Positions 6,001 to 20,059 of a stretch of DNA of 24,954 bases are shown one piece after another. Position numbers and translations under genes: made by a program. The notes beneath the pieces were generated by a model. It was not told the origin of the DNA. It did no database searches and saw only the letters and a program-made list of their open reading frames with translations. Origin of the DNA: a virus. The stretch covers positions 1 through 24,954 of the IMG/VR virus record IMGVR_UViG_3300027704_000147, one strand, 5' to 3'. Positions within the stretch are counted from its first letter, which is position 1, and every line of letters starts with the position of its first letter.

Positions 6001-7402
6001 ACTCAGCTGTTTTAGAAAAATCTCTTAAGTTCCCTATGACCATTCCAGCTAAAGGTGTCACGCCACTTCTGTTGGCCATTTGTTTTATTTCTATGCCATC
6101 AGCTATCATGGTAGAAGCACCACCTAATAGGTCATAAGGTATTTTACCTAAAACTAAAGCGGCTTTAGATCCTAATTTGTCTAAATCATTATAACTTTTT
6201 TTAGTCAATTTCAGATCCTCTGCTTCGTTTTTAATAGAAACATCTAAATCTGATATATCGTCTACAATAGCCTGTATATTGTTATTTGCTATTTCAAAAT
6301 TTTCTTTAGATTTTACAAATAAATCAAATGTAGCTTTAGGAACTATTTTGCCATTTGAAAGCTTAACGGTTTTATTGTTTTTTATAGCCTCGTTGTAAAC
6401 GTTCACTAAAGAATTATAACTTTGCGCCTCTTCTTTGTTTGTGATTTCGTTTGGATTTCCAAAATCTTTTAAGTTTTTTTCAGCTTCTTTTAGCTCAAAA
6501 AAACCTAAATCTGTTAAATCAAAATTAAAATCAGATTCTTCGCTAAAAGCTTTAGCTATTCTCACGTAGTTATCTAGATCAGGATTGTTAAAAACCTCAA
6601 CTTTTTCAGAATCTCCGTCAATATTAGTTACTTCTTTAATTGTAGTTCCTGCTGTAGATTTTAAAGTGAGTTTTAATTCTTCTTCTAAAGCTTTCTTTTT
6701 AATTATTTCTTCAGAAGCTTTTTCTACTTTTTGAGTAGTTACACTATCTTTATTTTTTTCGCTTAAAGTTTCTAAATATCTTTTAGTTAAAACACGTTTT
6801 ATTTTTACACGCTCTACATTGGTAGCTATTTCTATAGCTTTGTTTGTTATTTCTTGTTCTGTTGATCCTTTAGCTAATATGCTTTTAGCTTCTTTTGCAA
6901 ACTTACCGTAACTTTCATTTGCTTTTTCAGAAGCATATACTTCATTATCGTTACTTAAATCGGTGTTTAATCTAAAGCTTTTTAACTCTTCAGTTTCTTT
7001 TCTTGGAGTTAAAACTATTTCATCAAGTTTTATATCAGTACTTAATATATCAACTTGTTCAGCTTTAACTACTTTTTTTCTTTCAGCTATTTCTTCTGGA
7101 GAGTTTTCTAAATCTACTTTTTTTTGTTTATTTAGTTGTTTTTTCTGCTCGTCAGTAAGATCCTTATAAGCGGTTAACTCCGAAGAACCATCTTCCGATT
7201 GTAAAGCCGTATCTTCTGTTACTGCAGGTACAACCTCCTCCACAGCAACTTCCGGCTTTCCCAGCTCGTCCTGAGGTCCAAAGTCTGGATCTTCTTGTAT
7301 ATCTGGATTAGCTTCTAAAAAAGTTTGAAGATCTCTATCTGTTTCTTCAGCAAATTTCTTTGCTTGCTCTTCAGTTAGTTTTTTACCGTTGAATATATAC
7401 AT
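1..7402 (-). CDS. Giant multidomain internal virion (ejection) protein, C-terminus cut by window edge
   Basis: Not named by homology; probably packaged and injected with the DNA. The frame opens with ATG at 7402-7400 (MYIFNGKKLT), one base after the previous stop, and has no stop down to position 1, giving at least 2467 residues. Seen in order: a short N-terminal motif followed by a Glu/Val-rich linker; charged helical sequence; hydrophobic or amphipathic helices at about 408-440, 502-530, 548-578 and 647-669; a coiled-coil-like Lys/Glu-rich part (about 670-900); the metallopeptidase motif HELGH at 946-950 with Glu1001 as possible third zinc ligand; a sigma-70 region 2-like segment (about 1105-1205); LKFS motifs at 1419, 1573 and 2013; EEHTLPA at 1847-1853; and a long segment from about 2054 starting FFIPPSAEDF that I recognise from large phage proteins of the polyvalent-protein type. 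Size and position match T7 gp16. Function of the individual domains is inference. Confidence 0.85.
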   Translation of the reverse strand, partial: MYIFNGKKLTEEQAKKFAEETDRDLQTFLEANPDIQEDPDFGPQDELGKPEVAVEEVVPAVTEDTALQSEDGSSELTAYKDLTDEQKKQLNKQKKVDLENSPEEIAERKKVVKAEQVDILSTDIKLDEIVLTPRKETEELKSFRLNTDLSNDNEVYASEKANESYGKFAKEAKSILAKGSTEQEITNKAIEIATNVERVKIKRVLTKRYLETLSEKNKDSVTTQKVEKASEEIIKKKALEEELKLTLKSTAGTTIKEVTNIDGDSEKVEVFNNPDLDNYVRIAKAFSEESDFNFDLTDLGFFELKEAEKNLKDFGNPNEITNKEEAQSYNSLVNVYNEAIKNNKTVKLSNGKIVPKATFDLFVKSKENFEIANNNIQAIVDDISDLDVSIKNEAEDLKLTKKSYNDLDKLGSKAALVLGKIPYDLLGGASTMIADGIEIKQMANRSGVTPLAGMVIGNLRDFSKTAESYSKGADKLFEDYYKDDVSFEDAFSSGANLAEFSAQEIVGQFGNLAMYSMGMWPGSIAIGVTSYETQRRVLEEEEKNNILGTKKSALYKAGVATGYASAEVGFAAIPTINILKKATAGVPTKGILDGLSKFTLKQIGKTAVKDTAIEVAGESGTVMFQAGIDMLIGRKEWSPSNLVKDVPHAAFSALLLSGTFTSVPLVDGMVSRVFSDYNSNQEAMADLNEINEISLELQNIDGRTKEARAKKQVVKELTDSFINKLESKRKKLKSNLTKEGYEMLLVAEINKLKIQKEAKNIAEGIGSDKSKQASLTSLKILFDALNNEINDFKKDYKININLLPSKELNRLNSLAEQKLIGEGKKVDKATVKIEAEKIYLSENFDTNIDKTKKAIIAVNKSGTEQTFNVYETKSEAIEGFKASLDARVKSGKITEAQAEAELNKATEGVKSGQVNGFNYSPDDSFSDIVVVKENSINNGKTGIGLHELGHSLFTLGFAKDPEAFKGMAETVLSWLKENNESAYNRVSKNTALDVSEGRYDEVLTNFLEEVSSKRFDLEAKKNQGILGLLGLTINNGINKSTNTDGDFILQGDENVVEFLNSLSKKVKTETLTSEDVSQLKKGKIKEKVDLDKKTDTNIKESRSEEASTKVQELYDAQGEAAAFDIIEQFKPITNKIVEKRSQAPGFDRQLLTDEVETGKRGILDLIKEYKPESGVPLAAYINKFLPARAIEASKRILGEEFTDDVTEAKGVAAEEIAVDVVSTDKQATSKLRRVLGIKQGDEIYDLAKEVSGEILSSDLPGKKVKTAVNKKARESKLRKAVSDLMGTEKAIDEQFLNKNILEVLKALPASDLVKLEREAKVKVLAEQGPRLNVKDAREAVNKGILPKDTNLQSGPKVSSKLPTTLEQAKEFFTQKRKAGLVNVVTEMLVKDAAPEVTEGKIEPAKRAKVLSEIDRAPTLKFSLSTKQDLDWSIDEAENRNTSFTIGDKTYNVQLNARDLGADQDADPTDYSLEFDQDGSQELTGKGDQFKAVSIIYNGVIDEIKSNPNIATVRFNALTSETSRVKFYDVLLDKLSKELGWDAETFEYETNGVVDEIGFEMYKPEETTKELPTLKFSGTELSSVIDYVLQESFKVSENDFAKNDKDWSVIFETLGVVNLNLNNKLVREKFLDDLISTKVDKNGKPIPGLASKFPKSFWKNFQGTSKSVSEMRGDVKFYKMKDGSFAPGVLAKDKNGKTKYKAPDGAFRKYSSHVFFINVADAKAWIEKAESEGIKFPPESPMWKDLLYKEPYTQKVNKKEVLLLNKERFNDVDFINRQENKQKALKSIFKTFEKFIAEGKDKNNAALVGGLLKSTAGWQGHFIRKSAPVKFTQIGKMFNSKGEKLFTEEHTLPATGVAKYLFTQAVSGNVAKNFKYVEKNYFQGALLNKNDDKLAGIGVDGKKFSYKSKTPDGFNIETDNVWSRYFNPNVAKQAFGIDPNSLMTYQGKTVYDIHGVDSSGNFIDPAFNETLSKPAKTNNNKLPATVKLSKSDLFNNNVLNVMQETDNTNQESELKFSKSLDLDKDFNDIIENKTGIASDKTYARVKAEVAGANKGRFNFFIPPSAEDFVGLLYSTLGKGDVGDAQMAWYKAHLLNPFARAMENLANDRVSLMEDFKGLKKALKIVPKNLRKKIKDSDFTKEQAVRVAIWDKQGMTVPGLSQKDQQELVDYVDNDADLTVFADQLIAMGKGDAYAAPDGGWVAGTIDTDFIKALNTVKRDKYLEVWQQNADEIFSEANLNKLEAAYGKPYREAMENMLTRMSTGKNTSSGSDKLTARFTDWLTNSVGAIMFFNTRSAVLQTISAVNFINFSDNNVLKAGVAFANQPQYWKDFKKLFNSPFLLDRRSGLKLNVNEADIADMAKGPGNGARNVIAGILKAGFLPTQLADSFAIASGGASFYRNRIKALQKEGLTEAEAEEQAFRDFREIAEESQQSSRPDKISQQQAGPLGRVVLAFANTPAQYARLIKKA

Positions 7403-9299: not shown

Positions 9300-9713
9300 T
9301 TATACTATTTTTTTTGATATTTCATAAGAAGGATCTTTGTCTATTGTATAATTTAAACTTTTATGCGTATCAATTAAACCTTTACTTCTACCTATACTTA
9401 GTATTACTTTGCATCCGCTTATTTTAGCCACATACTCTAAGCCTGATACTAAAAGTTTACTAGCTTCTTTTTTGTCGGCTTCTTTATAATTAGCGTCTGA
9501 AACTATCCATTCCATCCAACCGATTTTAGAATTAGTAGTGTATATAAATCCGGCTATAATAGCTTTTCCGTGCTTTTCAACGATAAGTCCACCTGTTCCA
9601 TTTTCAGGTAATAATTCTTTAGTTGGATGCGTTTGCCATTCAGGCCACATTTTCCAAAGACCAACTAAAGTATCCCAATCAGATTCTTTTAATTTACGTA
9701 CACTTAATTCCAT
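9300..9713 (-). CDS. GNAT-fold protein, possibly non-catalytic (T7 gp13-like position)
   Basis: A 137-residue protein with the layout of the GNAT acetyltransferase fold: N-terminal RKLKESDWDTLVGLW (beta 1 and helix 1), GLIVEKHGKAIIAGFIYT (beta 2-3), WMEWIVSD (beta 4), a helix at about 78-98, CKVILSIG (beta 5) and HKSLNYTID, the usual 'YeklGF' position. The acetyl-CoA pyrophosphate loop (Q/R-x-x-G-x-G/A) expected after beta 4 is not visible; DANYKEADKKEASKLL stands there instead. It may therefore bind no acetyl-CoA or have a structural role. T7 gp13, also about 138 residues and located just before gp14-16, belongs as I recall to a GNAT-related family, so the order here is parallel. The fold call is moderately sure; activity is unknown. 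Confidence 0.7.
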   Translation of the reverse strand: MELSVRKLKESDWDTLVGLWKMWPEWQTHPTKELLPENGTGGLIVEKHGKAIIAGFIYTTNSKIGWMEWIVSDANYKEADKKEASKLLVSGLEYVAKISGCKVILSIGRSKGLIDTHKSLNYTIDKDPSYEISKKIV

Positions 9714-9723
9714 TTAATTTAAT

Positions 9724-11175
9724 TTAATATGATGATTCTACATATTGTGAAGACACTGCAAATAATTCTTTCATACCACCCACATCTGTTACCGTATCTG
9801 TAGATAGTTTTACTGTAGCAAAATAACCTTTTATACCAGTCATAGCTGCTCCCCAAAAAACTTCTCCGGCAGCAGCTGGACTATTATTTATAAGATTTGA
9901 CATGTATTTGTTCTCTTTACGAGAAAAACCTGCATGATTAATTGGAGGTGTTAAAATAGCAGGATATTGATTTCCATAATTATCATAAGATCCTTGATTA
10001 TAGCTATAAACTAAAGCTACAGTATCTTGAGTACCTAGATTGTATGCGTCTCCAGCAGCATTTATTGGCGTTCCAACGCTTGCTACTCCTGTAACTCCAG
10101 ATTTAAAGCTATCAACTTGCCAACCATTACCTCCTTCGTAGTTAACTGTCTTAAATACTTTAGACATACTAACTTTTGGGTTAAAAATAAACTCTATATT
10201 AGCTTTTTGCTGTACTCCGTAAAAATTAGAACGTTTAGCATCCGCAGCGTAATGCAACCATAAAACACCATCTTTAACAGTGTAATATTGATTTTTAATA
10301 CTACCTCCGTTATCTGGTTCGTAACCAAAGAAACTAGTAAAGCCATTTACGCCGTCATCAAAAGTAACCGTTGAGTATGTGCCAGAGAAAGGTTGTAAAG
10401 ATAATACATACTGCTTGCTGTGTATATCCCAAGCTCCTATTGCTTTACCTCTTTCGTCAATTGATCTGTCTAGTTCGCTTAGTTTGTCTCTAAAGTAGTC
10501 AAACATACCGTAATTAGATATTTCAGTTAAACCATCGTTAGACAACCTTAAAACTGCATTACGATCTTTATCTGTGAAGTATTTTCTATTACCGTATTTA
10601 GCAAAACTCTCTGGATTTCTACTTATACCAAAATTGCCAGAATAAGGTTGAACTGCACCTATAACAAGATTAGCAGATGTAACTGTTCCACCGCCTTCAG
10701 CTGAGTATATAGCATCTTTATCTATTAAAGCTCTACTTACTTTAGATTCTTGAAATATAGTTAAATTAGTGTTTTCTGCATAAAGTCTTTGTATTGATCC
10801 GTTAGCTGGATCTACACTTTTTATTATATCTTCACCTACAGAGAAAACGTTTGTATCGTTTATACCTGTTCTAGAATTAAATATACCAGAGTATATCATT
10901 GAATTAACCCTTAAAGATGCTCTTGGGTTGTCTTCTACTAAATAAGCTCTTACGCCAGGCTGTACAGATGCATTATTGTAACCACCAGTTATTCTAGCTT
11001 CTTCTACAGCCCAATTATAAACGCTTGATGCTGCTGGAGTAGGTATTATGCTTGTGTTGCCATATGTATTGTCTCCTCTGGAGCCATTCCACATAGGTGC
11101 GCTATTAGGCGCTGCGTCACTTAATGTCTTTCTCAGTATAAAACTGTTGAAATATTTAACTTCTATTACTCCCAT
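9724..11175 (-). CDS. Tail muzzle/stabilisation protein, beta-propeller-type part (483 aa)
   Basis: Resembles the C-terminal half of the muzzle (tail nozzle) proteins of crAss-like and related marine phages, which close the tail tube. Recognised stretches are VEEARITGGYNN, LIYSGIFNSRTG-like text (here MIYSGIFNSRTGINDTN), SVGEDIIKSVDPANGSIQRL, VSRALIDKDAIYSAEGGG, NPESFAKYGNRKYFTDKDRN and LRLSNDGLTEISNYGMFDYF. The repeats of short beta strands with Asp/Asn turns suit a propeller. There is no signal peptide or membrane segment. The ATG is preceded by an A/T-only leader (TAATATAATATG). It lies 39 bases after the 1506-residue gene and in the same reading phase, so the pair may be the two halves of what is a single protein elsewhere. 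The structural role is well supported; the exact position in the tail is inference. Confidence 0.75.
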   Translation of the reverse strand: MGVIEVKYFNSFILRKTLSDAAPNSAPMWNGSRGDNTYGNTSIIPTPAASSVYNWAVEEARITGGYNNASVQPGVRAYLVEDNPRASLRVNSMIYSGIFNSRTGINDTNVFSVGEDIIKSVDPANGSIQRLYAENTNLTIFQESKVSRALIDKDAIYSAEGGGTVTSANLVIGAVQPYSGNFGISRNPESFAKYGNRKYFTDKDRNAVLRLSNDGLTEISNYGMFDYFRDKLSELDRSIDERGKAIGAWDIHSKQYVLSLQPFSGTYSTVTFDDGVNGFTSFFGYEPDNGGSIKNQYYTVKDGVLWLHYAADAKRSNFYGVQQKANIEFIFNPKVSMSKVFKTVNYEGGNGWQVDSFKSGVTGVASVGTPINAAGDAYNLGTQDTVALVYSYNQGSYDNYGNQYPAILTPPINHAGFSRKENKYMSNLINNSPAAAGEVFWGAAMTGIKGYFATVKLSTDTVTDVGGMKELFAVSSQYVESSY

Positions 11176-11214
11176 ATTATATTATCACTTATTATTTAAA
11201 AAATCTCCAGTAAA

Positions 11215-14200
11215 TTACACAGGTCCAGACGGCTGTCCATTACCATCGTCACTTCTATCATATGGATTATATGCTTCAACAGCGTTACCTACCATAGGTA
11301 TTGCTGATTGTTTTATTTTTTTTCCATTTAGATCAAATTGAGCCGTATATTTTCTTTGAGAATTGCTAGAGGAGTTTACTTGAGGCTCATAGACTTCACT
11401 AGTTGTAAATGCTGAATTTTCTGTACCATATTCGCTATTAACACTGTTAATCTCTTGAACTGATTGATATACGTAATAATCTCCTTGTCTTGCAGCTGGA
11501 ACCCAATTTTGAGTTAGAGATGATTCTCTAAAAAACTGAGTAACATATTTTAAGGACCACTCTCTAGCGTATACAGTTTCAAATGTCGTTGGGTTGTTTA
11601 TAGTTAAGTTTTCAGCGTCAATTCTAGTCAATTGCCCTGTTAGTGATACTCTATAAGCATATACTTCGTTAGAAGATTCAGTTCCAAGTGAAGGATAATA
11701 AAAATCACCGTAAGATATATCTACAGTAATTCTACTTTCTGTTAAACCTGCTCCTCTTTTTTTATATGAATTACTATCTCTCCAGCTAGGTTGGTTACTT
11801 AAAGGGGTTGGAATAACCCTACTTGGAGGATCAGGTCCATCAAAAGAAGGACCTCCATCTACTGGATATAAAATTAATAATCTATAATCACCATACTGAT
11901 CTGCTGTTTGTAGGTAACCTTGATCTTTTCCAAAAACAAAAGTTTTTGAAACTGTAGATGTAACTGAAGATTGATCAGACGCCTGAGGAAACCAAGCTGT
12001 GGCACCTACTGAATCTTGTGCTATTCTATTTGGATCAACACTTGATCCAACGCCTTGTGTTATTTGGTATTCAGCAGAGTTTTTTAATATACCTGTTTTT
12101 GCAAAGTCATTTCCATTAGCGCTTGAGTTTAAGCTAGCATTATTAATGTTTATTTGCTCAGAACCAAAACGTATTTGAGAACCTTCTACATCTAAAACAT
12201 CCTGCCAAGTGCCTCCTGATGGTCTTATCTGTAAATAAGCAGTCCACGAAACCGTGTTGTAGGTAGGCTGGCGAGAAGACGATGAATCAATAAAAGAACT
12301 CCAAGGCCATTGTCTAAATTTAAAGTCAACCTTTAAAAAAGCTGTACCTGCGGTTAAAGAGTTGTTTCCGTTGCTAACGCTAGTATCTCTAGAACCTGTC
12401 TTGTAGTTACTGTTGTTCATCCTGTAAGGATTTCCTTCGTCATCTTGTACAGTTAAATCTACATTACCAGAGGATTGAACCGATGAAGAGGTGTTACTAA
12501 ATCCAGATTGTAGTAGTGATAAAAGCTCTATACCGTGTGTTCTTGAGCTTGCGCCACTTTCTGCGTTAAAACTATTTGGATATGGATCAGCTAAAGCTGA
12601 TGAGTAGTCTTCACACCAGAAAAAACCAGTAGATTGTATTCCTTTAGATATATCAGGTTGAGTTGAATTAGCTGCGTCATACTTGCCAAAACCTGGATTC
12701 ATAGGTTGTTTTCCAGCAACAGCTCCTATTTGCACAGTATAAGACAAGTTACCAGAATCAGTTACGGTGATGCTAAAACTATAATTTCCACTAACATCTA
12801 AAGGAGCAAAAACCTGTCCATCAGAAGGATTTATGCTTATAAGAGGTGTAGATGTTGGAACTTGATTTTTTATTTCCCAAGATAAATTGCTCGAAAGTTT
12901 GCCAGGTACAATAGTACCATTTGTACCTAAAAAAGTAAATATTGGAACATTTGGGTCTGTTCTGTCTTCTGATATAGCTGGGAAAAGAGCTGCATTTGTT
13001 ATAATAGGACCAATGTTACCTAAAATTACCGCAGGAACATCTACATTACCATAATTAATGATATTATTTGGGTCTGTTTTATTTATAACGCTAAAAGTAA
13101 ATATAAATGTATTTTTTAAAGCAGCTGTTTCAAAGTATTTTTCATTAACAACTTTTAATGTATAAGTTTTTTTATTGTCAACGTCAGCGCCATCTTCAAG
13201 CAACCAATCGCTTGTTATTACGGTTCCTTGTCCATTAGAAACGTTTACAAGTTTTATTTCTGCATTAGCTATAGGAACTCCATTTCCTAACCCAGAAGGT
13301 AAAGTAGCTGTAAAATTTAAAACAACAATATCTCCCTGGGGAGAAGCCTCTGTTTGCGAATAAAGAAAACCATCCTCACCATTAGAGTTCCATCCTTCTA
13401 AAGTTCCGTCGTCATTACCCGCTAACAAATTAAAATCGCTTATTAATCCAGTTGTAGAGGTTTCGTAAAATATATCTAATAAAGATTCAAATGGAGCCGT
13501 TTCAAATACACCTAAAAATATATTTTGTCTAGTATACCCCGTTATGCTACTTACCTGTGAAGAGCCTATTGGTTTAGACAGCGGCGTAGAAGCGGCAACT
13601 GAAACGTTATTTTGAGATATTCTAGCTACATAAGGATCTGAATCTGTTTGATATATAGTGCTATATGGAGGATTAACGGTTGCATCAATGAACATATTGT
13701 TTTGTTCTGATATAGACGCAACAGTCATTGTGTTGTCTTTTGGATAATAAGGCTCGTTATATGTAGGGGCAGTGTTATCAATGAAATTAGGCGTAACTCT
13801 ACCAAATAACTTAACGTCACTTCTGTACTGAAGCTGTTCGGGTCCCACTTCTGTTAAGTCTCTAGGCACTTTGTTTATATTATCGCTAATAAGAGATATA
13901 TGTGCAATAGTGTTTATTGGATCGGGCATATCAGCTCTTTGAGTAGAGGTGTAGTCTGGATAATCGTTTAATATACCGGGTAAGTAAACGTTGTAATAAT
14001 CTGTTTCTGTTTGCTTTACAACTACTTTATAAGAATACCAGCCCAAGGGATTGTAATTTGGACTAGTAGTATCACCATTCCATAAACCAGGAGTTCCTGT
14101 TATTATGTTGGAAACACTATTAATACCTGCATTTACTAGTATTTTTAAAGAATCTCCAGGCCATGAGTGTATGTCGTTAACTGATGGAGATACAGGTTCA

Positions 14201-15735
14201 CCTTTATAGGGATGATAATATGTTGATCCTTTAAAGTTCAAATCATTACCTCCAGTTGTTATTGTTTTTATTTGCGTATCTATAGGAGAAAGTATAGTAG
14301 TAGACTGTCTTCCATATCTATCAGAAAGCACTATACCAACTTGATAGTTTCTATTTTGTTTTAAAGTGTGTTCAGGGTACTCTATTTGACTCGTGGTATA
14401 AAGTGAATTATTAGTATTAGAAATATCAAATATTGACTTTTCAGTAACAGCTACATCATAATTTATAGTAGAAGGTGGAGTGTGTTTATCTTGAAAATTA
14501 CCATAAACAACTCTATTGCTAATTATTTCTTGACTAAGCGCTCTAACTGGCACTTTATCATAAACTCTTACTATTTCTGATTCAGGTAGTGTTTTATAAG
14601 GTTTTCTAGATTGATAATCGTAAGAATAGAAATCTGTTGATAAACCAACAAAAGTACTAGAAGGTATTGAATCTAATGTTTTTACGGTTAATGAGTTAGA
14701 ATCTTTCCAAACAATTTCTACTTGAGATACGTCGTAAGCAGATTCTAAATTTTGTCCTTGAATTGGTAATGGAATATGAAGTTTTACATTAGTAACTTTA
14801 TTACGCATAAATTCCACAATAGAACTTCTATAAGCTGAATCCTCATCACCGCTTAAAAAATAACCATCTTGCTGTGGTATAAATGCTTCTTGAGTAAAAG
14901 GAGCTAATATAGAGTATTCTCCATCAGAAAACTTAAACCTATAGCTAAAAGATACAAATTTATTTTTTAAATAATCAGGATCTCCAGGCCATTTAACGTC
15001 GTAATACATGTTATCCGTGGTTCCATCTGGTAATTTTGAAGAAGTAACATCCTGCGCTGCACACACCCATTGATTACGATTAGGATTAACAACAGTTGTA
15101 GAGTTTGGAATAAATTCGTTTGTATCTTGGTAATATAGCTCTATTACCTCGTAAGGATTATATTTTGCTATAGATACTAAATCTTCTGAATTATAGTGAG
15201 ATGAATTTGCTTGTGCTGTGGATACGTTTATTTTTCTTGGTTGATTTCTGTTATCAGTCCAAAATAACAAATTCTCTAAAGCGTTTACAGCGTTTATTGG
15301 ATTAGTTTTAGAGAAATTCAAATAAGCACCACTAACTAATTGAGATGCTTCTGTAGTTAAGGTGTTGTAAGAATATATGTAATTCAACGCCGTAGAAGAG
15401 TATAATATATTTCCTGGAAAACCTGGATCAGTATAATTTGTTAAAAAAACAAATATAGTACTAGATACTATGTCACTGTATAAGCCTATTGATTTTAATG
15501 TTCCAGTACTATGTCCTGCTAAAACGCTAAAATCAACTGGAACTGGATCGCTACCACTTGTGTTTATAAGAGCTTTTGAATTACCTAAAGCATTCTCTAA
15601 AGCACCTACGTCTTCGCCTTCTGATTTACTAACCTGTATATTAAATCCATCTCTATATTCACCTGAAGGTAGTAATCTACTATCAAGATCTTTATTCATT
15701 TTAGACTTTATAAAAGCATTTTTAACTTCAGCCAT
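11215..15735 (-). CDS. Large tail muzzle/nozzle protein with Ig-like insertion (1506 aa)
   Basis: The start is diagnostic: AEVKNAFIKSKMNKDLDSR, then LLPSGEYRDGFNIQVSKSEG and DVGALENALGN. This is the N-terminus of a tail stabilisation/muzzle family widespread in marine and crAss-like phages. It is functionally comparable to P22 gp10 or T7 gp12, which form the tail nozzle. Later family signatures include RFKFSDGEYSILAPFTQEAF (about 265-285) and VVKQTETDYYNVYLPGILND (about 570-590). From about 775 to 1010 the style changes to Thr/Ser/Val-rich beta sequence, including a cadherin- or Ig-like repeat (SINPSDGQV then SGNYSFSITVTD). The last 500 residues are again beta-rich with many Asn, Ser and Tyr. 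Its start is 5 bases after the 409-residue ring gene. Length is near or above the usual single-chain muzzle, although the propeller part is encoded separately downstream. Confidence 0.8.
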   Translation of the reverse strand: MAEVKNAFIKSKMNKDLDSRLLPSGEYRDGFNIQVSKSEGEDVGALENALGNSKALINTSGSDPVPVDFSVLAGHSTGTLKSIGLYSDIVSSTIFVFLTNYTDPGFPGNILYSSTALNYIYSYNTLTTEASQLVSGAYLNFSKTNPINAVNALENLLFWTDNRNQPRKINVSTAQANSSHYNSEDLVSIAKYNPYEVIELYYQDTNEFIPNSTTVVNPNRNQWVCAAQDVTSSKLPDGTTDNMYYDVKWPGDPDYLKNKFVSFSYRFKFSDGEYSILAPFTQEAFIPQQDGYFLSGDEDSAYRSSIVEFMRNKVTNVKLHIPLPIQGQNLESAYDVSQVEIVWKDSNSLTVKTLDSIPSSTFVGLSTDFYSYDYQSRKPYKTLPESEIVRVYDKVPVRALSQEIISNRVVYGNFQDKHTPPSTINYDVAVTEKSIFDISNTNNSLYTTSQIEYPEHTLKQNRNYQVGIVLSDRYGRQSTTILSPIDTQIKTITTGGNDLNFKGSTYYHPYKGEPVSPSVNDIHSWPGDSLKILVNAGINSVSNIITGTPGLWNGDTTSPNYNPLGWYSYKVVVKQTETDYYNVYLPGILNDYPDYTSTQRADMPDPINTIAHISLISDNINKVPRDLTEVGPEQLQYRSDVKLFGRVTPNFIDNTAPTYNEPYYPKDNTMTVASISEQNNMFIDATVNPPYSTIYQTDSDPYVARISQNNVSVAASTPLSKPIGSSQVSSITGYTRQNIFLGVFETAPFESLLDIFYETSTTGLISDFNLLAGNDDGTLEGWNSNGEDGFLYSQTEASPQGDIVVLNFTATLPSGLGNGVPIANAEIKLVNVSNGQGTVITSDWLLEDGADVDNKKTYTLKVVNEKYFETAALKNTFIFTFSVINKTDPNNIINYGNVDVPAVILGNIGPIITNAALFPAISEDRTDPNVPIFTFLGTNGTIVPGKLSSNLSWEIKNQVPTSTPLISINPSDGQVFAPLDVSGNYSFSITVTDSGNLSYTVQIGAVAGKQPMNPGFGKYDAANSTQPDISKGIQSTGFFWCEDYSSALADPYPNSFNAESGASSRTHGIELLSLLQSGFSNTSSSVQSSGNVDLTVQDDEGNPYRMNNSNYKTGSRDTSVSNGNNSLTAGTAFLKVDFKFRQWPWSSFIDSSSSRQPTYNTVSWTAYLQIRPSGGTWQDVLDVEGSQIRFGSEQININNASLNSSANGNDFAKTGILKNSAEYQITQGVGSSVDPNRIAQDSVGATAWFPQASDQSSVTSTVSKTFVFGKDQGYLQTADQYGDYRLLILYPVDGGPSFDGPDPPSRVIPTPLSNQPSWRDSNSYKKRGAGLTESRITVDISYGDFYYPSLGTESSNEVYAYRVSLTGQLTRIDAENLTINNPTTFETVYAREWSLKYVTQFFRESSLTQNWVPAARQGDYYVYQSVQEINSVNSEYGTENSAFTTSEVYEPQVNSSSNSQRKYTAQFDLNGKKIKQSAIPMVGNAVEAYNPYDRSDDGNGQPSGPV

Positions 15736-15740
15736 TCAAT

Positions 15741-16970
15741 TTAGTATTTAATCCATTTAGATTTACCTCGAGCAATCTGAACAAACTCATTTAATTTTAT
15801 ATTTGATAATCTAATCTTAGCATTTCTTAGTTTAGCACTTTTTTCTCTTCTGAGTCTCTGTACGACATACTCAGGTTGATTTATTCTAGTAGCTATTATA
15901 GCATGACTAATATGGGCATATAAAGCTTCTTCTGCTAACTTAGGTATTTTCATGTCAGCATCATAACCTAAACCATCAGAAATATATTCTAAAATTATTA
16001 GTTTTTGTGCTAAGTCACTAGAAAAAGACATTTTGCCGCTTTTTTCATTTATAGTAAACCATCCGTTTACTTGAGCTGTTTCAGGCTGTAAACCATATCT
16101 TTGTCCAAAATAGTTATCTCCATACATGCCGCCATATCCTAAACCGTCTGACAATAGCATACCCGTCAAATTGCTTTGAGCAGCATTGATTTGATCTAGA
16201 TTATTTGCGTTCCAGCGGGTTTCAGTTTGAGAAGAAAACTCTAAATTTTGACTGTCACTTTCTTGTATGGGTAAACCTTCGTTATCTTGAGCGGGTACTT
16301 CATAAGGATTACTAGTGAGCGTGGTGGGGTATATAATATGCTTTATTCCTTGACCATCAATCCAAGATACATTAACATAGTTTACGTAATCTTGAGGCAA
16401 TGGAACGCTTAAATTAGCAGGTATACTAAGCTCTTGAGATCTTATACTTTTTAAAGTGTCATAGCTAAATTCTTGTAAACCTCTTTTAGCGAAAAATATT
16501 ACGTCAGTTGTTTTGGCACTTGGAATTAGTTTACCTGCACCAACGTAGCCAACCATAAAATTAGTTATAACATCTTCTAAAGAAGTGTAAGCGTAACCAC
16601 CGTAGTTATCTTCCACTGTAGTTCCAAAAGCATCTCTATTACCGTACGAACCTCCAAACTGACTTAACAGCTGAACTACAAAAGATTCTGTTCCAAGAGG
16701 TGGTATAGTTGCTAGAGTTATAACGTTATTTTCAACAGTGTATGCGTTTACATATTCTTGATATTGATTAGCCAACCCGTTAGGACTTACGTATAATCTA
16801 AAGTTGTTTAAATTGTATGTGTCCGTATTGGGATCATAATTTCCAAATGTTAAGTCGGTGTCAAATGTAGTTGTTAGCCTAGTGTTAACTATAGGAGCTT
16901 CAAATGTTTGAGAACCAGCGTAATACTGCGCATTTGTTTCTGTTATTAAACCATTATTTGGTGTAGCCAT
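15741..16970 (-). CDS. Tail ring/tube protein (409 aa)
   Basis: A virion neck protein of the kind found just before the muzzle gene in crAss-like and marine podovirus-type phages, where several 12-fold rings join portal and muzzle. Recognisable stretches are LNNFRLYVSPNG, FFAKRGLQEFSYDTLKSIRSQEL (about 165-190), SVPLPQDYVNYVNVSWIDGQGIKHIIYPT, QRYGLQPETAQVNGWFTIN, LIILEYISDGLGYDADMKIP and the basic C-terminus KIRLSNIKLNEFVQIARGKS. The N-terminal 120 residues look like a separate beta domain, and the C-terminal 100 residues are helical and basic. There are no membrane segments. It follows the 237-residue connector gene by 3 bases and precedes the muzzle gene by 5 bases, so the three form one translational cluster. 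The family assignment is from memory of homologues; which ring it forms is not known. Confidence 0.72.
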   Translation of the reverse strand: MATPNNGLITETNAQYYAGSQTFEAPIVNTRLTTTFDTDLTFGNYDPNTDTYNLNNFRLYVSPNGLANQYQEYVNAYTVENNVITLATIPPLGTESFVVQLLSQFGGSYGNRDAFGTTVEDNYGGYAYTSLEDVITNFMVGYVGAGKLIPSAKTTDVIFFAKRGLQEFSYDTLKSIRSQELSIPANLSVPLPQDYVNYVNVSWIDGQGIKHIIYPTTLTSNPYEVPAQDNEGLPIQESDSQNLEFSSQTETRWNANNLDQINAAQSNLTGMLLSDGLGYGGMYGDNYFGQRYGLQPETAQVNGWFTINEKSGKMSFSSDLAQKLIILEYISDGLGYDADMKIPKLAEEALYAHISHAIIATRINQPEYVVQRLRREKSAKLRNAKIRLSNIKLNEFVQIARGKSKWIKY

Positions 16971-16973
16971 TTT

Positions 16974-17687
16974 TTAACTTTTTTTATTTGTTTCTTCGGC
17001 TTGAACTAAAGCGGCTGCCGTTTGTATTATTTGAGGGTCTCTTATTATGATACCAGAATACAATAATATTTTTAATACAACTTCAGTTTGCTCTGATGCG
17101 TGTAATTCGATATCAGTAGAAAGAATACTTTGATATTCGTATTGACCTAATGATCCAGGAGTAAAACCCCACACTACGTCCTTAGGTTTTCGCACGTAAT
17201 CTACTTTTATTTTATCTATTATAGTTAAAGGTTTTATAAAAAGCTTTTGATTTTCATAAAGATAAGCTGGATTTATAACGCTTGGCTTAGTTAATTTAGA
17301 TTGATTAGCATAATAAAACTCACGTCTATCAAGTCTTTGAACAACTTTTTCTTCGTTGTAAAGCACATTACCTAATCTATAAAAAATAACTTCATCACCA
17401 TAAGAATCTATTGTTGGAAGCGAAAAGTAGTTAGTATTAGCTACAAGAGTCGCTGGTCCAAGTGTTTTGAATATAGCTATTTTTTCGTCAATATTTTCTT
17501 GTCTATCTGCATAATCTGTATCTGCCTGAGGCACACGTAGTTGCTGATTAAGATCATCGAAGTATTTTTCAAATATCTCTAACTGTACTTGTGTTGCTAC
17601 TGTGTTAAACTCAGTCGGGGTCATGTAACCACGCTGCTCTTTATTCAGTATCATTAAAACAGTTTGATATACTGTATTTACGTCCAT
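16974..17687 (-). CDS. Head-tail connector / ring protein (237 aa)
   Basis: The N-terminus (VNTVYQTVLMILNKEQRGYMTPTEFN) followed by VQLEIFEKYFDDLNQ is typical of a small connector family that sits between capsid and muzzle genes in crAss-like and marine phages. In size and place it corresponds to P22 gp4 or T7 gp11 adaptor proteins, which dock under the portal. Residues 1-75 are helical. Residues about 90-190 are beta-rich (YFSLPTIDSYGDEVIFYRLG, IDKIKVDYVRKPKDVVWGF). The C-terminus is a helix rich in Ala and Glu (QIIQTAAALVQAEETNKKS). It begins after a hairpin terminator and its A/T-only leader has no Shine-Dalgarno sequence. It ends 3 bases before the 409-residue ring gene. The structural role is likely; the precise ring is inferred. 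Confidence 0.72.
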   Translation of the reverse strand: MDVNTVYQTVLMILNKEQRGYMTPTEFNTVATQVQLEIFEKYFDDLNQQLRVPQADTDYADRQENIDEKIAIFKTLGPATLVANTNYFSLPTIDSYGDEVIFYRLGNVLYNEEKVVQRLDRREFYYANQSKLTKPSVINPAYLYENQKLFIKPLTIIDKIKVDYVRKPKDVVWGFTPGSLGQYEYQSILSTDIELHASEQTEVVLKILLYSGIIIRDPQIIQTAAALVQAEETNKKS

Positions 17688-17704: not shown

Positions 17705-17736
17705 ATTAAAATAAAGGAGGCTCTCGCCTCCCTTAT
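17705..17736 (-). terminator. Intrinsic terminator between 254-aa gene and connector gene
   Basis: Six-base GC stem GGAGGC / GCCTCC with a four-base loop (plus-strand 17716-17731), extended after one mismatch by four A/T pairs. Read on the minus strand it is followed by TTTATTTT. It lies within the 60-base gap after the 254-residue gene and before the 237-residue gene. Its place and T-rich tail fit a rho-independent terminator for leftward transcription; partial read-through to the tail genes is possible. Confidence 0.75.
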
Positions 17737-17747
17737 AATATTACATG

Positions 17748-18512
17748 TTAAGAGAACTTTTTCTCTATAGACTGGAATACTTGTATTCCTTCGTCTGTTT
17801 TGAAGAAAGATGCCATAGCTGAGTATGGATTTTCATCAAAAGGTATTGTCATTAATTTACGTCCATTAGATGCCCAAGTAAACGTTCTTTGATCGTCGGC
17901 AAGTTTTATAATATTTGCTTCAGTTGCTCTAATGGCAAAATTTCTAAGTTGAACATTATCATCGTTAGCTAGATCTAAGAACAGTTTAGGATTATACTTA
18001 GCAAATAAGAATAAGTCTCTTTTAAGTTCCTTAGAACTCATGTCTGACACTTTAGATCCTAACTCTACACGTAGTATTGCTTCACATTGATCAATGTCAA
18101 TATTTTTAGCAACGTTTAAAGCCTCTAGCTCCATCTCTAATTCAAATAAATCATCTTTAGCATCTTCTTGGATATCTTGCTCTGTATACAATATACTTAA
18201 AAGCGGGTGATATAAAGATAATATTTTTTGAAGTGCTTGATTTTCTTTAGTAACTAATAAACTTCCTTCTTTAAATCTAATGTGGCCAAGCGTAGCTTCG
18301 CCAGCTTGTTCATCTTTAAATGGAGAGTTTTGATTAGTTGCATATCTAACTTCTCTTTGTTCGTTTTTTTCAGCGTCATACCACAATAGTGGATGCCTTG
18401 CTGTATGTTTTGAAGGTATTTTTAATGTTAGAGGATTATGAGGTCCTTTTAAAAAATACGTTCTGTCTTTTATTTCCCAAGACGAATCTTGAATTGTTTG
18501 CTTTTTAGCCAT
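17748..18512 (-). CDS. Conserved virion-module protein of unknown function (254 aa)
   Basis: I recognise the pattern but know no function. The N-terminus (SSWEIKDRTYFL), then LTLKIPSKHTARHPLLWYD, REVRYATNQNSPFKDEQAGE, and a C-terminal part (FTWASNGRKLMTIPFDENPY, SAMASFFKTDEG) recur in uncultured marine phages next to the capsid gene. Residues 1-95 look like a compact beta domain. Residues 95-210 are helical and acidic, and the last 40 residues carry the conserved aromatic/Gly motif. There is no membrane segment, signal peptide or catalytic signature. Each side has a hairpin terminator, so this gene may be a separate transcription unit with its own dosage. It could be a capsid-associated or assembly protein, or a modulator carried in the late module; context does not decide. 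Confidence 0.7.
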   Translation of the reverse strand: MAKKQTIQDSSWEIKDRTYFLKGPHNPLTLKIPSKHTARHPLLWYDAEKNEQREVRYATNQNSPFKDEQAGEATLGHIRFKEGSLLVTKENQALQKILSLYHPLLSILYTEQDIQEDAKDDLFELEMELEALNVAKNIDIDQCEAILRVELGSKVSDMSSKELKRDLFLFAKYNPKLFLDLANDDNVQLRNFAIRATEANIIKLADDQRTFTWASNGRKLMTIPFDENPYSAMASFFKTDEGIQVFQSIEKKFS

Positions 18513-18589: not shown

Positions 18590-20059
18590 TTACACTCCTT
18601 TGAATAATACAAAGTTGTTAGCAGCTTGCACTACTAAACATCTTTCAGATAAGAAGTTAACTTCCATAGCATCAAGAGTACTTGTGAAAGCACCACCTGC
18701 TGATCCAGTTAACCAAGACTTCATACGACGATCTTCTGTTTGAGAAGCTCTGTATCGCACGTGTAAGAATGGTCTACGGATGTTAGTTCCTAAAATTTGA
18801 TCGTATACTGTAGAGGTTCCAGCTGGCACTAAGATACCTTCGATAGAAGATGGTCCCGTTTGCGCACCACGAGTAGAAGCGTCATTTAAGTATTTCCAGT
18901 CAGTTTTATAGAAGTCATAAGATCCTCTGCGGAAACCACTAAATCCAAGATTTAATGCCATTTCTTCAGAATTTTCAAATAATCCATAAGCAGTACCACC
19001 TTGAGATCCTTGAGATACAGCACTTAGCATGTTATCAAATTCTAGTGAAGTTGAACGTTGTAAAAACAACATGTTTTCTTCAATAGCTCCTTGAGTATCT
19101 AAGTTTTTCAAAATCTCATCAAAGTCATCAATTCCGCTTGCGCCACTAAATCCAACTTCAACGTTACCTCTAGACTGTACAGCAGCAAATAAACCTTGAG
19201 TACCTTTAAACGTAGCTGCTAAAGCTGCTGATCCTGCCGCTGCAAGCTCACCTTCAATAACACTCATTTCTAAGTAATCTTCAAAACGTAAACGAGTTTC
19301 AGATTCAGCTTTTAAATACCATAAGTATCCAGAAGTACCATCTTCAGTAGCAACTTCTACCCAACCGATCTGAGCCATGTCAGAACCATTGATAGTGTAA
19401 GTATTACGAATGATGATAGGTGAATTAGAAAACTGAGTAAATGAAGGATCAATACTGATGTTAGTAGTTCCAACAGCTGGATTAACACCACCTGCTACAG
19501 AATTAGTTGTTTGAGATCCTTTATTAAATTCAGAACCGTATACAAAGATCTTAACGATAGCACCTAAACCAGCTGTGTTTGCAGCAGTATAAGGAGCAAC
19601 TGTTAATTGACCAGCAGTAGCGGCTCCAGGAGCAGCTAAGCTACTAGCTGTAACGATACATTTTAATTCTTGACCAGCTCCATCCATAGCAACTATAGTT
19701 TGCCCTGGAGATACCACGTTAGTAATAGCCGGAAGACCAGCTGCAGCTACACGAACAGGAATAACAAATACGTTAGCACCTGCATTACCTACATTGTCAT
19801 AAGAGATATGTAGTCTGTTTTGTTCTGACCAAATAACTTGATCTGATGTCATTGGCATTTCAGCTCCAACCATACGTAAGAATCCAGAAAGAGTTCTATT
19901 TCCGTAACGTTCTACTTCTTGTTCGTAGATCTCAGGTAGATACTGTTGTGCGAAATCATTGGCGTTAGCACCGCCTGTGTTAAATGCTAAATAGTTTGTC
20001 GCTAACAGTTGTTGTTGTTGCGATGGTACTATCGAACCGAATTGTGGACTTAAAGCCAT
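18590..20059 (-). CDS. Major capsid protein, HK97 fold (489 aa)
   Basis: Forms the head shell. The N-terminal part has ATNYLAFNTGG, LPEIYEQEVERYGNRTLSG and FLRMVGAEMPMTSDQVIWSE, followed by QNRLHISYDNV, which I recognise from marine and crAss-like capsid proteins of this size. The C-terminal part (RPFLHVRYRAS, MKSWLTGSAGGAFTSTLDA, MEVNFLSERCLVVQAANNF) is the conserved end of the family. Residues about 90-200 are Ala, Gly, Val and Thr rich strands. Codon and residue choice are more even and G-richer than in neighbours, as expected for a very highly expressed gene. The start is 12 bases after the scaffold stop, and a strong hairpin terminator follows. No protease cleavage site is obvious near the N-terminus. 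Confidence 0.88.
   Translation of the reverse strand: MALSPQFGSIVPSQQQQLLATNYLAFNTGGANANDFAQQYLPEIYEQEVERYGNRTLSGFLRMVGAEMPMTSDQVIWSEQNRLHISYDNVGNAGANVFVIPVRVAAAGLPAITNVVSPGQTIVAMDGAGQELKCIVTASSLAAPGAATAGQLTVAPYTAANTAGLGAIVKIFVYGSEFNKGSQTTNSVAGGVNPAVGTTNISIDPSFTQFSNSPIIIRNTYTINGSDMAQIGWVEVATEDGTSGYLWYLKAESETRLRFEDYLEMSVIEGELAAAGSAALAATFKGTQGLFAAVQSRGNVEVGFSGASGIDDFDEILKNLDTQGAIEENMLFLQRSTSLEFDNMLSAVSQGSQGGTAYGLFENSEEMALNLGFSGFRRGSYDFYKTDWKYLNDASTRGAQTGPSSIEGILVPAGTSTVYDQILGTNIRRPFLHVRYRASQTEDRRMKSWLTGSAGGAFTSTLDAMEVNFLSERCLVVQAANNFVLFKGV

Follow-up and report, generated by a model that had tools for sequence, protein, structure and literature searches.

A crAss001 gp44-like muzzle protein encoded by two genes in an uncultured phage clade, probably through one ancestral fission within the IG2 domain

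Two adjacent muzzle genes

The IMG/VR virus record IMGVR_UViG_3300027704_000147, analysed over a stretch of 24,954 bases (the window), carries a run of structural genes on the minus strand. Two adjacent genes of this run, here called A and B, together correspond to the tail muzzle protein, which in crAss001 is the single chain gp44. According to passages of PMC10172136, the crAss001 muzzle is a hexamer at the tail tip which gates cargo, and the protein is highly conserved across crassviruses and likely acts as the gate through which DNA and cargo are released. An original prediction, made from the letters of the window, held that the muzzle gene had been divided in two, and both open reading frames (ORFs) are indeed present:

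11215–15735, minus strand: gene A, 1506 amino acids (aa); N-terminal muzzle chain followed by a C-terminal extension. By alignment to gp44 its muzzle part holds the propeller start, IG1, most of IG2 and the crass-type domain.
11176–11214, minus strand: intergenic gap between A and B, 39 bases.
9724–11175, minus strand: gene B, 483 aa; C-terminal muzzle chain, holding the remaining IG2/crass strands, the remaining propeller and the C-terminal domain.

Between the two genes the reading frame passes through TAA (the stop of A), TGA and TAA before reaching the ATG of B at 11175, as had been read from the sequence, and both this start and its leader are conserved across two-gene loci. A single sequencing error had been discounted, and the break is not a sequencing error: the nearest relative (locus L001), whose B is 97% identical, has the same gap of 39 bases.

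Rather than belonging to separate families or to non-adjacent parts of a protein, A and B match one PHROG in order, and gp44 is the best structural match of both. Against PHROG 14478 (1474 positions) the best match of A covers profile positions 1–180 (A residues 4–201), while B matches positions 941–1215 (B residues 78–346). The N-terminal start and the propeller signatures thus lie in separate genes, as predicted, but the propeller should not be confined to B, since the gp44 alignment would place blades 1–2 and part of blade 3 in A. B also matches the Pfam domain PF25729 (crAss_MUZ_C) at 40.2 bits, above the curated cut-off of 27. Neither A nor B matched PF25731 (crAss_MUZ) at E 0.1; the one-chain muzzles of phi38:1, elemoF and phi13:2 are likewise without a match at E 0.01, and those of Gundel and crAss001 match it. 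A Pfam cadherin hint at A residues 416–480 falls below the cut-off. Sequence searches against PDB chains returned only one aminopeptidase for A, at E 0.51, and nothing for B at E 1; A was also without a plasmid match at E 1e-5. Over residues 76–225 of B, identity to the window averages 0.65–0.79 (73 aligned sequences). In A it is about 0.5 over the first 600 residues and 0.1–0.2 past residue 800; the best-conserved residues of A lie in its muzzle part and not in its tail, which is highly variable.

Among named phages, the best matches by sequence are Pervagoviridae (phi38:1) and others whose records do not place them in the order Crassvirales. The relatives that have been isolated infect Flavobacteriia. 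In Cellulophaga phage phi38:1 the muzzle is gp097 (1324 aa; Pervagoviridae; PHROG 14478), which has 28% identity to A 1–487 and 35% to B 41–352 (tblastn) and lies in a similar gene neighbourhood. Unlike A and B, it is one ORF, in which roughly 50 residues separate the two conserved strands discussed below, with no large insertion at that place. Likewise crAss001 gp44 (PDB 7qok, 7qol; Pfam PF25731, PF25729) shares with B the PF25729 domain, and its gene follows other tail genes in the order found in phi38:1; it is, however, one chain of 1371 aa, whereas A and B are two genes with a break within the IG2 region and an extension on A. The fold of B also matches the T7 nozzle gp12 and P22 gp10, more weakly (Z 9–13); each of these matches as one PDB chain, and neither is known to have a crass-type domain. 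In all, A and B have the homology over both ends in order, the crAss_MUZ_C domain and the gp44 fold (the fold match of A being middling) of a gp44-like muzzle, and they are not one polypeptide chain. Because two genes are found in 132 distinct loci, we file them as a split variant and not as an ordinary gp44-like member.

Position of the break

One-chain relatives have a conserved strand, ..FETEP..DIYYEAS.., and then, across a short connector, a next strand, ..WFNCYSFGNGVES... The first has its counterpart in A before the break, and B begins with the second (MGVIEVKYFNSF):

13444–13512, minus strand: A residues 742–764, the final conserved strand region ahead of the break, counterpart of FETxP..DIYYEAS; the model of A has strands at 742–746 and 750–764.
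11140–11166, minus strand: first conserved strand of B (residues 4–12, IEVKYFNSF), counterpart of WFNCYSFGNG in one-chain relatives.

The stop, gap and new ATG of the window therefore fall at the position of the one-chain connector. Both motifs, FETxP and YFNxF, were located in 11 of 35 one-chain rows, where they are spaced by 33–51 residues; taken from FETxP to xVES, the distance is 40–46 residues in 29 of the 38 rows measured, among 60 listed. The exceptions to the latter measure are inserts of 122–143 residues in six rows (L183, L208, L210, L220, L241 and L245), values of 60 in L246 and 71 in L247, and a value of 22 in L240 which is a chance match; the connector of L219, at 41 residues, is without an insert. 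On the evidence of the six long rows, the connector also accepts inserts in one-chain forms. Separately, three one-chain muzzles (L200, L223 and L234) have approximately 1,230–1,540 residues after the connector, compared with about 480 for the window's B; domains have been added there too.

IG2 of gp44 spans residues 318–1021 and is inserted into propeller blade 3, with insertions of its own at 453–904 and 940–1012 (passages of PMC10172136). The break would lie near gp44 residues 920–950, inside IG2 and, because IG2 is inserted into blade 3, inside the propeller as well. A profile alignment of the one-chain connector to gp44 proved unreliable upstream of the propeller, so the position on gp44 is taken from the fold alignments.

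Distribution of one-chain and two-gene forms

The comparison with crAss001 gp44 and its relatives that the original prediction had proposed was carried out on 11 named phage records, 10 of which have a single long muzzle ORF:

Phages phi38:1, 1324 aa; Gundel_1, 1386 aa; elemoF, 1493 aa; MW202828, 1551 aa; phi13:2, 1613 aa.
Gut crassviruses crAss001, 1371 aa; cr85, 1453 aa; cr111, 1483 aa; cr1, 1374 aa; cr118, 1503 aa.

In crAss001, cr85, cr111 and cr118 the N-terminal profile alone matched, and their one long annotated gene was treated as the muzzle. The eleventh record, Maribacter phage Panino (L159), has a frame change further downstream, within the propeller part, around 7000–7030. This may be a sequencing error or a real frameshift; it is a different break from that between A and B and was not counted as a two-gene case. 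Nor was L173 counted as split, single-base gaps separating it from L172.

Loci were collected by searches with A, B and one-chain forms, seeded with the window and phi38:1, and were scored by two profiles; the counts are accordingly lower bounds and not frequencies. At least 249 loci were found: 158 with two genes, 67 with one chain, and 24, including Panino and L173, without a score. These include at least 132 distinct two-gene loci (differing in the 200 bases round the B start) and at least 64 distinct one-chain genes (counted by differing gene sequence). Close relatives that could be scored have two genes, as the window does, but more distant ones have one. Among 14 contigs from bacterial or archaeal genome bins, seven are two-gene, one is one-chain (L262, in a Wenyingzhuangia genome) and six are unscored.

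Over the 132 loci the gap between A and B ranges from 3 to 464 bases, with a median of 33, and is 29–41 bases in 100 of them. The relative phases of A and B are spread 46/40/46, so that the shared phase to which the original prediction drew attention, although true of the window, is a matter of chance and uninformative. Four loci (L075, L078, L132 and L143) have a separate ORF of about 140 aa between A and B, in gaps of 439–464 bases; of three such ORFs scanned against Pfam, one matched the nucleotidyltransferase domain above its cut-off, one below it and one gave no match.

Trees

A tree of the A N-terminus (96 rows) and a tree of the B core (95 rows, L146 having been dropped for too few columns) each have a single branch separating two-gene from one-chain forms, with a Shimodaira–Hasegawa-like approximate likelihood ratio test (SH-aLRT) support of 99 in both. 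With 11 extra one-chain rows and the two-gene rows thinned (76 rows in total; L118, L146 and L177 dropped), support for the separating branch is 100. At the level of sequence, then, these are two genes of one family with one break position and one branch of the muzzle trees.

A marker tree was built from three neighbouring structural proteins, encoded in the window at 18590–20059, 16974–17687 and 15741–16970. Removal of loci lacking any of the three complete markers, and of phi38:1 copies, left 175 rows, and removal of near-duplicates left 96. The marker names ‘capsid’ and ‘ring/connector’ are labels given from position and the PHROG category ‘head and packaging’; 16974–17687 has an SU10 adaptor match below the cut-off. 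In this tree 60 of the 62 two-gene rows form one clade (support 100) and the one-chain lineages lie outside it on several branches, namely phi13:2, Gundel, the phi38 group and the MW202828 group; three changes of state are needed. Distances among the A, B and marker trees are correlated over two-gene rows (0.75, 0.71 and 0.75); co-inheritance and shared descent are not separated by these values and nothing was drawn from them.

Structure predictions

The AlphaFold2 model of B (73 sequences) has a predicted local distance difference test score (pLDDT) of 78; modelled alone, residues 117–483 are mostly of high confidence and residues 1–116 mostly of low confidence. Over residues 80–480 its best PDB match is crAss001 gp44 (Z 18.2, root-mean-square deviation (rmsd) 4.1, 324 residues aligned). 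A was modelled over residues 1–1200 with 43 sequences (pLDDT 74; predicted template modelling score, pTM, 0.58). Its best PDB match is also gp44, A 53–771 aligning with gp44 55–935 (Z 11.6, rmsd 5.4, 376 aligned), while A 1–51 is mostly poorly predicted alone. Both of these ends, A 1–51 and B 1–116, are largely conserved, except for B 26–50. Conserved ends predicted with low confidence would fit the need for a partner chain, although this does not prove it.

Origin of the two-gene form

We consider it highly probable that an ancestral one-chain muzzle gene was broken once, in the IG2 connector, and that its halves remain two parts of one subunit. The break would have occurred between two IG2 strands, in the common ancestor of a large uncultured phage clade that has phi38:1 as a relative and crAss001 as a more remote one. 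The original prediction of a fission is thereby supported, but the event is not particular to this phage; it would be old and clade-wide, and one gene fission ancestral to the whole clade is the best reading of the trees. The polarity could in principle be reversed, the two-gene form being ancestral and the one-chain muzzle of other lineages having arisen by joining, as change counts on an unrooted tree cannot separate gain from loss. Such a fusion would require the root to lie at or inside the two-gene clade, or else repeated identical joins, and it is improbable because one-chain forms occur outside the clade on the several branches named above and in all five gut crassviruses opened. It is similarly hard to regard A or B as a decaying remnant or the product of an assembly error. 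Isolated frame breaks are seen in relatives (L173 compared with L172, and Panino), but the strong conservation of B and the presence of intact A and B in 132 distinct loci leave this explanation with very little probability.

Readthrough of the stops to give one long protein would suit the common phase in the window, and reassignment of TGA is reported for a zeta crAss-like phage in passages of PMC12386605. Two TAA codons nevertheless lie between the reading frames, an extra ORF intervenes in four loci, the start and leader of B are conserved, and the variation in gap length and phase across the 132 loci makes readthrough very unlikely. A split intein or trans-splicing was also set aside, the C-terminal ends of A being mutually unlike when compared by eye among 20 of 119. 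The halves might alternatively no longer form one subunit, A having become a separate tail-tip adhesin and B alone the gate; most of B is predicted with high confidence when modelled by itself, and the tail of A is highly variable. Since, however, conservation in A is concentrated in the muzzle part, and B by the gp44 alignment holds just part of a propeller, this too seems unlikely.

Several points weigh against a single fission inside IG2. In the marker tree two two-gene rows, L209 and L239, lie outside the main clade, L239 without a firm place and L209 among one-chain rows; L209, with a two-gene muzzle and neighbours that group among one-chain phages, may be a case of exchange of the whole muzzle pair. 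The polarity of fission depends on one-chain phages lying outside the clade, and the drawn root is a midpoint; the gut phages are absent from the marker tree, as the marker profiles did not find them, and its two deepest rows, Gundel and phi13:2, were flagged as long branches. The placement of the break at gp44 920–950 uses the edge of the A alignment and strand patterns judged by eye. The alignment of B spans gp44 292–1371 and thus lies partly before IG2. The model of A is middling and its Z score for gp44 is hardly above those of cadherin rows, which cover another part of the chain; Foldseek over the whole length of A against gp44 gave E 4.1e-9 with a template modelling (TM) score of 0.22 and an rmsd of 29.7. 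Low confidence of a chain end can have other causes, and the packing of the two chains together is an inference.

The C-terminal extension of A

Beyond the break, A continues into a long extension:

11218–13443, minus strand: C-terminal extension of A, residues 765–1506.
12712–13404, minus strand: two putative cadherin/Ig-like domains, A residues about 778–1008; their fold resembles that of cadherin fragments with two domains (Z about 11, rmsd near 10).

From the start of FETxP to the end of A there are 762 aa in the window. Of 137 distinct A proteins, 131 have the pattern, with a median of 722 (range 78–1118), although some matches are possibly spurious; approximately 20 of those 722 residues are the strand itself, leaving about 700 past the break. 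Fits of single domains over A 904–1009 have an rmsd of 2.2–2.4, and the 778–1008 region had no Pfam match at 1e-3. Eight A tails were scanned against Pfam, with the one-chain L208 as ninth protein; in the tails the only matches were Fib_succ_major and a cadherin match below the cut-off, both in L079. That the tail is an adhesin is a guess from its fold and place.

A conserved leader motif before B

Upstream of B lies a conserved motif:

11177–11196, minus strand: promoter-like leader motif AAAAAYAAGTRATWATAAAA (in the window, AATAATAAGTGATAATATAA), matrix score 21.7.

The weight matrix was built from 96 B leaders, so the count for B leaders includes the training set: the motif precedes B in 99 of the 132 distinct two-gene loci and has no match in 33, and L221, a basal member, has no motif by eye. 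The distance from AAGT to the ATG is 15–16 bases in 72 of the 99. Beyond the training set, it recurs in two-gene loci, in 46 of 131 leaders of the upstream ‘ring/connector’ gene, about 2 kb before A, where it is followed by a hairpin. Elsewhere in the two-gene loci (2.4 Mb) there are 27 matches on the plus strand and 4 on the minus. In one-chain loci (n = 66, 1.0 Mb) it occurs in none of 56 ‘ring/connector’ leaders, with 10 matches elsewhere and 1 on the minus strand. The motif resembles a phage promoter or a start signal peculiar to the two-gene clade, and through it B would be transcribed or translated from a start of its own. The upstream copy in the window itself, at about 17735–17749 on the minus strand, is weak and below threshold.

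The small gene after B (9300–9713, minus strand) matches PHROG 17252; it appears acetyltransferase-like by eye only and has no Pfam match at 0.01.

Implications for the muzzle

If the muzzle gene was indeed divided in the IG2 connector, the products of A and B would fold into one subunit and assemble as the tail-tip plug, which is hexameric in crAss001. With a break inside IG2, and hence inside the propeller, each of these would be completed by two chains, with blades 1–2 and part of 3 supplied by chain A and the remaining propeller by chain B, so that assembly would probably require the two products to interlock. A would present its new C-terminus at the distal tip, where the cadherin/Ig-like and other domains added to it may touch the surface of the host. 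The fuller picture, in which one ancient fission in a connector at the surface left a propeller and an Ig domain closed by two chains, freed a C-terminus at the tip on which exchangeable cadherin-like adhesion domains could be built up, and was accompanied by the gain of a phage promoter for the second chain, is put forward tentatively, as a proposal somewhat short of an even chance.

No description of a two-gene muzzle was found in the literature searched, including passages of PMC10172136, PMC12386605, PMC11054128 and PMC10136315. As far as these searches go, what is new is the two-chain form together with its location within IG2, the function and the one-chain fold being already known. A stable natural cut inside a folded part shows where the muzzle tolerates a break, and it points to a site at which extra domains can be added. 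The split muzzle also allows the completion of one propeller and one Ig domain by two chains to be put to the test, and models built on one-chain muzzles will miss or mislabel half of the protein in phages that carry it.

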